A stretch of 64,000 nucleotides of DNA, from contig NZ_OU015584.1 of assembly GCF_907165195.1 (NCBI RefSeq), positions 2,108,001 through 2,172,000 of the forward strand. Reading direction: 5' to 3'. The stretch comes from Parvicella tangerina (GTDB lineage: Bacteria; Bacteroidota; Bacteroidia; Flavobacteriales_D; Parvicellaceae). Each line of letters begins with the position of its first letter. The first letter of the stretch is position 1. Below, piece by piece: positions 22,817-28,081 of this stretch. The position numbers were made by a program, and so were the translations under genes. The notes beneath the pieces were generated by a model. It was not told where the DNA came from and ran no database searches. It saw only the letters and a list, made by a program, of their open reading frames with translations.

Positions 22817-23474
22817 ATCGAGTAGACGGCTCCGCCAAAAATTGACGGAGTGCGCCTCTCACACCACCCAGCGTACGGTTCTCGTACTGGGCGGTTCGAT
22901 ACTCATCAATACAAAGCTCTTTTCACCCTTGTAGCTATTCCTTTTTACTTTAAGCATAGGCTATACTTTTGTATTCCTATGCGAATTTCTAGAAGAGTAT
23001 CGTTCGGTCCTTCCATACGCTGTGAGTCCTCCGATGCTTATCCCTTAGGTCACCGACTCGTTGCTTGTATGTACTATGACCTCTGCTGACTTCTCCTCTA
23101 TGCTAACGCGTAGCTAAGGAGACCTCCCCCGGTAAGAGCTTTTTCTTCCCGTCAATAACTGCCGCATCTACATAACCAACCTTTTCTTGTGGGCGTTACA
23201 ATGATGTGCTTGCTTACCCAAATTGGCTATGCCTCTGTATGCGATTCCTGTTCGTCAGTACCGACTTTTGTAGTCCTGCTTCCTTCAGTCCTAGCTTCAC
23301 AACTAACAACCTTGCAGCTTACTAATGGTTATAGGAACGACCCTAACCCACAAGGGACTTTAACCCTCTAGAAAGATAACACCCGCTTTTCTTTCGTTTC
23401 TAATCAATAATTTGCATTATTGATATCAAAAACAAAATTCAAACGGGTGTGTCCTGCTCATGCAGGGCACACAC
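22817..23474 (-). mobile_element. ORF-less group II intron, copy a (658 nt, canonical domain V)
   Basis: Read on the minus strand the element begins GTGTG (consensus GUGYG) and ends ...CTACTCGAT. Domain V (22863-22895, 33 nt) has a 9-bp lower stem ACCGCCCAG/CTGGGTGGT, with the catalytic CGC triad containing a G-U pair, a 2-nt CG bulge and a 4-bp upper stem with a five-base loop. It is followed by GTGAGAGG. Domain VI (22818-22850) is a hairpin with a likely branch-point A (22823) 7 nt from the 3' end. The 5' part contains domain I-like segments (AGGACTGAAGGAAGC). There is no reverse-transcriptase or maturase frame; domain IV is short. It lies in antisense to the cassette genes, in attC-like site 2. 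Confidence 0.75.
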
Positions 23475-25664: not shown

Positions 25665-26402
25665 ATCGAGTAGACGGCTCCGCCAATAATTGACGGAGTG
25701 CGCCTCTCACATTTATCTACCGAAATACAATGTAGGCATGACCACCCAGCGTACGCGAGCAACGCTCCTTCCCTTCCAAAAATAATTCACTGGATTATTT
25801 TTGTCGTGAACATACTGGGCGGTTCGATACTCATCAATACAAAGCTCTTTTCACCCTTGTAGCTATTCCTTTTTACTTTAAGCATAGGCTATACTTTTGT
25901 ATTCCTATGCGAATTTCTAGAAGAGTATCGTTCGGTCCTTCCATACGCTGTGAGTCCTCCGATGCTTATCCCTTAGGTCACCGACTCGTTGCTTGTATGT
26001 ACTATGACCTCTGCTGACTTCTCCTCTATGCTAACGCGTAGCTAAGGAGACCTCCCCCGGTAAGAGCTTTTTCTTCCCGTCAATAACTGCCGCATCTACA
26101 TAACCAATCTTTTCTTGTGGGCGTTACAATGATGTGCTTGCTTACCCAAATTGGCTATGCCTCTGTATGCGATTCCTGTTCGTCAGTACCGACTTTTGTA
26201 GTCCTGCTTCCTTCAGTCCTAGCTTCACAACTAACAACCTTGCAGCTTACTAATGGTTATAGGAACGACCCTAACCCACAAGGGACTTTAACCCTCTAGA
26301 AAAATAACACCCGCTTTTCTTTCGTTTCTAATCAATAATTTGCATTATTGATATCAAAAACAAAATTCAAACGGGTGTGTCCTGCTCATGCAGGGCACAC
26401 AC
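25665..26402 (-). mobile_element. ORF-less group II intron, copy b (738 nt, expanded domain V)
   Basis: About 580 bases of the 5' part are the same as copy a except for a couple of substitutions, and the ends match (GTGTG start, ...CTACTCGAT end, branch A at 25671). The exon at the 3' side is the left attC box TGCCCA. Two insertions account for the extra 80 nt. One is 50 nt at the tip of domain V (25741-25823), containing its own hairpin AAAAATAAT/ATTATTTTT. The other is 30 nt between domain V and GTGAGAGG. The lower stem, the CGC triad and the two-base bulge are kept. There is no coding frame. At the 5' side the exon is a stem with arms AATAAACGCA/TGCGTTTATT followed by T residues. Confidence 0.75.
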
Positions 26403-27062: not shown

Positions 27063-27235
27063 CTATAAAAAATGCGGACAGTTGAACTAAATATTAACTT
27101 TACTACTATCAAGCGCCAAAGCTCCGCTTTAGCGTTTTGTATAAATAAATTAAACTTAAACCGTAGCTTTGGCTTACACGCGTGCTCAATTGATCCCGAA
27201 GTTTCGGGAGCTTCTCAATTCCGCACTTTTCATAG
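27051..27235 (+). other. attC-like site 5, same hairpin family as site 1
   Basis: The left box GCACAAC (27051-27057) leads into CTATAAAAAATGCGGA, which pairs with TCCGCACTTTTCATAG (27220-27235). The internal GCCAAAGCT/AGCTTTGGC stem is shared with site 1; this copy has an additional hairpin (TCCCGAAGTTTCGGGA). The expected right end (TATTGTTGTGC-like) is missing. The homology stops at CATAG, exactly where the IS110 element enters site 1, and continues GTACAGT, similar to the IS end GTACTGT. Confidence 0.55.
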
Positions 27236-27308
27236 GTACAGTAAAAAAACCTCTTTGAATCAAGCAACTTTTTAGTTACTTTTGACGTTACTAACGAGAA
27301 CAGTAACT

Positions 27309-27590
27309 ATGATAAAGTCTTTTGGCAATAAGGAAACTGAGAAAATTTGGAACGGACAGAGGTCTAAGAAACTTCCGAATGAAATTCAGGAAATTGCAAG
27401 AAGAAAATTAAGAATGTTAAATAACTCTCAGGACATTCAAGATTTACGCATTCCTCCATCGAATCGACTAGAAAAACTTGGAGGAAATTTAAAAGATTAT
27501 CATAGCATTAGAATAAACAAGCAATGGAGAATCATTTTCATTTGGGAGAATGGGAATGCTTTTCAAGTTGAAATAGTTGATTATCATTAA
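27309..27590 (+). CDS. higB: HigB-type toxin (RelE superfamily mRNA interferase)
   Basis: A 93-residue protein of normal HigB length. Diagnostic features are WNGQRSKKLP near the N-terminus, ARRKLRMLNNS, LRIPPSNRLEKLGG and the terminal YHSIRINKQWRIIFIWENG, containing the conserved Arg/Trp/Arg of the RelE-fold active site. Family members cleave ribosome-bound mRNA. The toxin precedes the antitoxin, the usual higBA order. The ATG at 27309 is the natural start; the frame extends 9 codons upstream. The pair is the last cassette of the array, and a TTGACG-like element about 25 bases upstream may be its promoter. Confidence 0.88.
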   Translation: MIKSFGNKETEKIWNGQRSKKLPNEIQEIARRKLRMLNNSQDIQDLRIPPSNRLEKLGGNLKDYHSIRINKQWRIIFIWENGNAFQVEIVDYH

Positions 27591-27600
27591 TTTAATTAAT

Positions 27601-27897
27601 ATGAGTAATTTAAAGAACATACATCCTGGAGAGATTCTTTTAGAAGAGTTTCTTAAACCTCTTGAAATTTCTGCCTACAGACTTTCAAAAGACACCTTTA
27701 TTCCTCAAACTAGAATTAGTGAAATAATTAAAGGACGAAGAAGAATTACTGCGGACACCGCTCTAAGACTTTCCAAGTACTTTGGTACTTCTGCTAAATT
27801 CTGGCTGGGCCTACAAGACGATTACGATATTGAGGAAGAAAAGGCTAATAAAAAAGCCGAACTCGACAGTATCAAACAAATAAGTAACGCAGCCTAA
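27601..27897 (+). CDS. higA: HigA-type antitoxin (HTH/XRE family)
   Basis: A 98-residue antitoxin beginning MSNLKNIHPGEILLEEFLKPLEIS, the conserved HigA N-terminus, followed by a helix-turn-helix (YRLSKDTFIPQTRISEIIKGRRRIT) and TALRLSKYFGTSAKFWLGLQ. HigA neutralises HigB and represses the operon. It starts 10 bases after higB. Its TAA stop is formed with the left attC box: GCCTA belongs to the site and the last A is the first base of the truncated intron copy c, so intron insertion changed the sequence immediately after the coding end without harming the gene. Confidence 0.9.
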   Translation: MSNLKNIHPGEILLEEFLKPLEISAYRLSKDTFIPQTRISEIIKGRRRITADTALRLSKYFGTSAKFWLGLQDDYDIEEEKANKKAELDSIKQISNAA

Positions 27898-28081
27898 TCG
27901 AGTAGACGGCTCCGCCAATAATTGACGGGGTGAGCCTCTCACATTTATCAACCGAAATACAATGTAGGCATGACCACCTAGCAGACGAGAGCAACGCTCC
28001 TTCCCTTCCAAAAATAATTCACTGGATTATTTTTGTCGTGAACATACTGGGCGGTTCGATACTCATCAATACAAAGCTCTT
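27897..28081 (-). mobile_element. group II intron remnant, copy c (3' end only)
   Basis: This 185-bp stretch has the 3' end, domain VI, linker insertion and expanded domain V of copy b, including the hairpin insertion, with some substitutions (for example GCTAGGTGGT in place of GCTGGGTGGT, which weakens the lower stem). Homology to copies a and b ends abruptly at 28081, so domains I-IV and the right half of the attC-like site are deleted. The 49 bases to the next gene contain nothing recognisable. It marks the right edge of the cassette array. Confidence 0.75.

Follow-up and report, generated by a model that had tools for sequence, protein, structure and literature searches.

A group IIC-type intron of Parvicella tangerina with a two-hairpin module at the tip of domain V

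The window that we analyzed, a 64,000-nucleotide stretch of the P. tangerina genome (one contig, 3.98 Mb), contains a full-length ORF-less intron, intron b, whose domain V has 83 nt instead of the 33 nt found in its sibling, intron a. We think it quite likely that intron b is a non-autonomous intron of group IIC type that is served in trans by the intron-encoded protein (IEP) of its siblings, and that its domain V represents a conserved form of its own with a two-hairpin tip. This form of domain V is new; the element itself is of a known kind, a group IIC intron. The features are as follows:

22817..23472, minus strand: intron a, the ORF-less sibling with a normal domain V, 656 nt
22863..22895, minus strand: the normal 33-nt domain V of a
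25665..26400, minus strand: intron b, full-length, ORF-less, group IIC-type, 736 nt, GTGTG...GAT, between TTGT and T, with Rfam D1D4 matches
25665..25710, minus strand: domain VI and 3' end of b, with 1 difference from a
25711..25740, minus strand: insertion of 30 nt between domains V and VI of b (J5/6), weakly folded
25741..25823, minus strand: domain V of b, 83 nt
25750..25751, minus strand: the 2-nt domain V bulge of b, CG, kept
25756..25810, minus strand: tip module of b, 55 nt, in place of the 5-nt loop AGAAC; a basal stem with hairpin 1 (AAAAATAAT-CCAGTGA-ATTATTTTT), then hairpin 2 (GAGC-GTT-GCTC)
25815..25823, minus strand: 5' strand of the domain V lower stem of b, ACCGCCCAG, with the CGC triad
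27897..28081, minus strand: c, a 5'-truncated 3' fragment with b's domain V module and linker insert; the 3' strand of its domain V is mutated

A preliminary description of this region, made from the sequence alone, had noted that a and b are almost identical over about 580 nt and differ by 80 nt in the 3' region. Both points hold: up to the tip of domain V, the introns differ at 2 of 588 positions (the 575 nt upstream of domain V are identical except at 2 positions), and the 80 nt are a net gain of 50 nt in the tip, where 55 nt replace a's AGAAC loop, plus 30 nt in the linker, which separate domain V from GTGAGAGG as had been stated. Positions 25741-25823 had also been marked correctly as domain V. 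The tip was said to be replaced by an extra hairpin: it is indeed replaced, but not by a single hairpin, as two hairpins turn the tip into a three-way junction. In b, hairpin 1 is built of A-U pairs and of modest strength (z = -1.7). As had been reported, the lower stem (9 bp), the CGC triad of group IIC (in the ACCGCCCAG strand), and the 2-nt CG bulge are all kept, and so is the 4-bp upper stem, UAUG/CGUA. Only the distal loop and the linker are altered, and the catalytic half is intact. Thus, domain V of b has the canonical lower stem with the triad, 2-nt bulge, and upper stem above it, but it lacks the compactness of the usual hairpin, which has about 34 nt and ends in a small loop.

Domain V, where the catalytic metal site is located, is regarded as the most conserved element of these introns; the preliminary description, too, called it the most conserved part of group II introns. 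The normal length that it gave, 34 nt, needs a small correction for b's family: in the Bacteroidota sequences that we saw, the normal form has 33 nt and a pentaloop, mostly NGANC. Domains V of normal length are also found in ORF-less relatives from plasmids of Tenacibaculum and Chryseobacterium, so the short form is probably ancestral. As for the 30-nt insertion in the linker, we found just one other case among 399 genomes. It is probably a tolerated second insertion, or passenger, and may be incidental; we claim no function for it.

Besides a and b, the genome contains two further ORF-less copies (656 nt each) and two identical ORF-bearing copies (1865 nt). All six start with GTGTG and end with GAT, in agreement with the group IIC consensus (5' GUGYG and 3' AY), and all six are inserted at [T/G]TGT|T, with hairpins predicted in the joined exons; in a and b, the ends read GTGTG...GAT|T. 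Within the window, Rfam recognized domains I-IV of both a and b. The ORF encodes a 423-amino-acid group II reverse transcriptase/maturase (TIGR04416) that lacks an endonuclease domain, and its best match in PDB is the GsI-IIC reverse transcriptase, so that the class assignment comes from TIGR04416 and the structure match. Introns of group IIC, including IIC-attC, insert at TTGT/T beside hairpins and encode no endonuclease domain (PMC7923331, PMC4424553). The P. tangerina introns resemble this group (bacterial class C) in these respects, in the nearest relative of their IEP, and in the CGC triad; intron b differs from it by having a three-way junction at the tip of domain V instead of a small closed loop, by the lack of an ORF, and by the 30-nt insertion in J5/6. 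We also considered whether the cluster of introns might be part of an integron, but no integron integrase scored above the cut-off, and we set this reading aside.

Fragment c has both of b's insertions, as the preliminary description had it. Of 183 positions, 7 are different between c and b; they all lie in the 3' half, and 4 of them are in the 3' part of domain V, where they break pairs. Because of this distribution, and because the first 92 aligned nucleotides are identical, we rejected a far greater age of c. Between b and c, at about 27195-27215 of the window, is an intergenic palindrome (TCCCGAAACTTCGGGA) of a kind that is inserted in some domains V (loci L164 and L160). Two small adjoining ORFs by c (about 27300-27700, minus strand) have, by eye only, the look of a HigB/HigA-type toxin-antitoxin pair.

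We then scanned about 85,000 species with a gapped pattern for domain V. This gave at least 115 stretches, mostly from Bacteroidota; a few of the matches, such as those in Sphingomonas, Acidobacteria, and Thermoleophilaceae, look like chance. Among the matches listed, at least nine relatives have the b-type tip, from Draconibacterium, Mangrovibacterium, Mangrovivirga, Cytophagales, Flavobacteriales, and unclassified Bacteroidota metagenome-assembled genomes (MAGs). When nine relatives were folded singly, they shared one broad plan, with the lower stem, bulge, and upper stem, then an internal-loop stem (often UGA/GAAA) with a variable hairpin 1, and finally hairpin 2, which is short; the minimum-energy folds of L136 and L151 deviate at the junction or in hairpin 2. 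RNAalifold arrived at the same three-way junction unprompted. The form is rare: random samples returned it from P. tangerina only. Searches of the family (39 genomes) and the class (395 genomes) and a model search of the phylum (375 genomes) found it in no other genome, with almost all other matches in the phylum being normal domains V of 34-35 nt, and it was not found in viral contigs.

The helices of the b-type tip covary. In an alignment of 11 sequences, 92.9% of cells pair, and both partners vary in 10 of the 22 pairs. Cells with such both-side changes numbered 21, compared to 6.3 +/- 2.0 in shuffled alignments (0 of 500 shuffles reached this), and the signal was lost when the partners were slid. 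Within the insert, helix 2 has double changes in all five of its pairs, although it pairs in only 76% of cells, and helix 3 has them in one of four. The arms of hairpin 1 are unlike in sequence; across nine sequences (L136 and L078 were left out), arms folded with their own partners at a mean of -13.3 kcal/mol, versus -4.1 kcal/mol with foreign partners (0 of 20000 permutations). Finally, a covariance model (R2) that was built without b and c gave 78.3 bits for b and 62.9 for c, versus 34.3 for the normal domain V of a and 34 or less for introns with other insertions in domain V. As R2 recovered b and c from the window with E values of 9e-19 and 1e-14, these matches are not due to chance. Together with the relatives, these data support a distinct and conserved form of domain V that is also present outside P. 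tangerina, across several bacterial orders. The suggestion that b and c represent a distinct intron form, to be checked by a search for homologues and for covariation, thus gains support.

Copy numbers also hint at activity. Draconibacterium aestuarii has two full-length ORF-less b-type introns, which are almost the same in sequence and occupy different sites, with a normal-domain-V copy next to them, and several other b-type genomes have 2-4 copies each. Mangrovivirga has a full-length ORF-type intron with a b-type domain V; two hairpin inserts of about 50 nt interrupt its maturase gene close to the C-terminal end. These inserts, about 100-250 bases upstream of domain V in locus L229, begin with AATGC..GCATTCATGAA and resemble copies of a small hairpin element. 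Several b-type relatives are truncated copies. Judging from these sequences, b-type introns are probably functional.

Other modules are found in the domains V of Bacteroidota IIC introns. We collected at least 86 distinct extended domains V, a few of them chance matches. Recurring modules are found in three places, namely in the terminal loop, at the 3' bulge, and at the junction between lower and upper stem on the 5' side. A given palindrome may occupy the tip in one intron but the bulge in the next, and there are domains V with two modules (in L150, L163, and L076, one hairpin is in the terminal loop and another is in the 3' bulge). A near-identical palindrome, CCTATGCTGAAGCTTCGGCG[C/T]AAGCAT, is in the linker between domains V and VI (J5/6) in L035 and inside domain V in L066. 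Introns with such other inserts have uninterrupted maturase ORFs of 433-449 codons in L139, L160, L166, and L091, among others, and some are present at several sites per genome in Zobellia uliginosa, Reichenbachiella agariperforans, and Pedobacter puniceum. A tentative reading, to which we give somewhat less than even weight, is that domain V of these introns is a modular platform, with interchangeable tip and bulge cassettes that are exchanged between introns, replace the terminal-loop contact, and supply contacts with RNA or the maturase.

These patterns are also consistent with small hairpin elements entering domain V repeatedly, and b's insert might itself be a hairpin element, small and mobile or REP-like, which is tolerated in the loop and has no role, with domain V being a hot spot. 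The recurrence of the same palindromes at different points of domain V, the one that is shared by domain V in L066 and the linker in L035, and the hairpin inserts within a maturase gene all point this way. However, the two hairpins of the b-type tip follow a specific plan, with covariation across orders, and within P. tangerina the insert is present only in b and c. REP or MITE elements would have many intergenic copies independent of introns, but in the relatives the model matched only domains V (E <= 1e-4). The genome-wide check for a REP origin used the core of another module (module B) in eleven genomes: in Vicingaceae, it is restricted to the three intron domains V, and in Draconibacterium, there are three further occurrences. 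Overall, we consider a roleless mobile insert to be unlikely. Separately, in a Draconibacterium genome, GAGCGTAGCCGAAGG occurs three times within 420 bases (L179, L182, and L184; G786:C20:171457-171879), outside the introns that we examined.

It is less likely still, and in our view improbable, that b is a dead intron whose domain V and linker are decaying by insertion. Insertions in domain V are expected to disturb the zeta-zeta' contact (PMC10255950), and c is truncated with a mutated domain V. But b itself is free of decay: it is nearly identical to a, and the catalytic elements of its domain V are all intact. Also, its homologues covary and are present in several copies per genome, which runs against the idea that b-type sequences are limited to this genome and decay at random. 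That b is an assembly chimera, which might be suspected because b has a near-identical repeat, a, at a distance of 2.9 kb, is excluded, as c independently has both inserts and homologues in other genomes carry the form, and the genome is a single contig.

We return to the reading of b as a trans-served intron with a conserved form of domain V. The preliminary description raised an exchange of domain V between introns, and this too found support. In a tree of domains I-III, the three b-type sources (P. tangerina, Draconibacterium, and Mangrovivirga) fall apart, and well-supported branches force at least three changes of label. On this tree, b lies inside its own genome's family of introns with normal domains V, and it is a sibling of these except in domain V and the linker. 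Furthermore, in the MAG GWA2_32_17, an extended and a normal domain V are each followed by the same domain VI, one base apart near the 3' end. For these reasons, introns have probably exchanged domain V, or domain V with the linker, by a route that we take to be homologous recombination or template switching by the reverse transcriptase. Instead of being swapped, the form may have been gained and lost repeatedly.

The terminal loop of domain V docks into domain I (zeta-zeta'), and this matters for the positioning of domain V in a IIC intron (PMC10255950); lariat formation by IIC introns requires the IEP (PMC7161350). We propose that the two-hairpin module, which replaces the terminal loop and makes the tip a three-way junction with the catalytic half unchanged, entered an a-type intron by recombination or template switching within identical flanking intron sequence. 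The contact of the tip with domain I would then be lost or rebuilt: the module may make a contact instead, the maturase may make the contact dispensable, or both may compensate. Intron b presumably still splices, and it is probably spliced and mobilized in trans by the maturase/reverse transcriptase of the two identical ORF-bearing copies.

In the open-access papers that we searched, which leave out most subscription journals, we found no earlier description of an insertion in domain V of group II introns. Some class B introns have a 3' extension, domain VII, which is also a natural addition to the catalytic 3' region, but it extends beyond domain VI, whereas b's additions are inside domain V and between domains V and VI (PMC4424553).

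Similar introns are also present on plasmids. ORF-less introns whose short domains IV closely resemble one another are found on Tenacibaculum and Chryseobacterium plasmids (L025, 2430-3090, and L026, 2450-3110) and in P. tangerina. A lineage without an ORF thus seems to be maintained in several genera, although ORF-less introns are called rare in bacteria. On an E. coli plasmid (NZ_CP037911; L027, 2960-3060), the 3' remnant of a related IIC intron, with the end of the maturase gene, a normal 33-nt domain V, and domain VI, is placed between ISVsa3 and tet(X4), and its domain VI is matched by about 200 plasmid records at 95-99%. This would fit with a Bacteroidota source for the tet(X4) segment.

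Domain V is also used, as RF00029 (Intron_gpII, canonical domains V-VI), to find introns in genomes. Intron b shares the lower stem, triad, bulge, and domain VI with RF00029, but its domain V of 83 nt is not matched even at permissive E values, where Rfam gives only chance snoRNA matches within it. On the Draconibacterium contig, RF00029 at its gathering score matched the copy with a normal domain V but not its two extended neighbors. The insert alone does not explain why b is missed, because the normal domains V of b's family are missed as well. Surveys that are based on domain V can thus miss introns.

More broadly, a covarying, multi-copy domain V with a three-way junction at its tip implies that the distal half can be rebuilt, and that this "invariant" domain tolerates add-on modules and seems to exchange them. 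The b-type form offers a direct test of the extent to which zeta-zeta' is needed when the maturase is present. If domain V of Bacteroidota IIC introns is indeed modular, then a supposedly invariant catalytic domain would have evolved accessory subdomains, much like domain IV.
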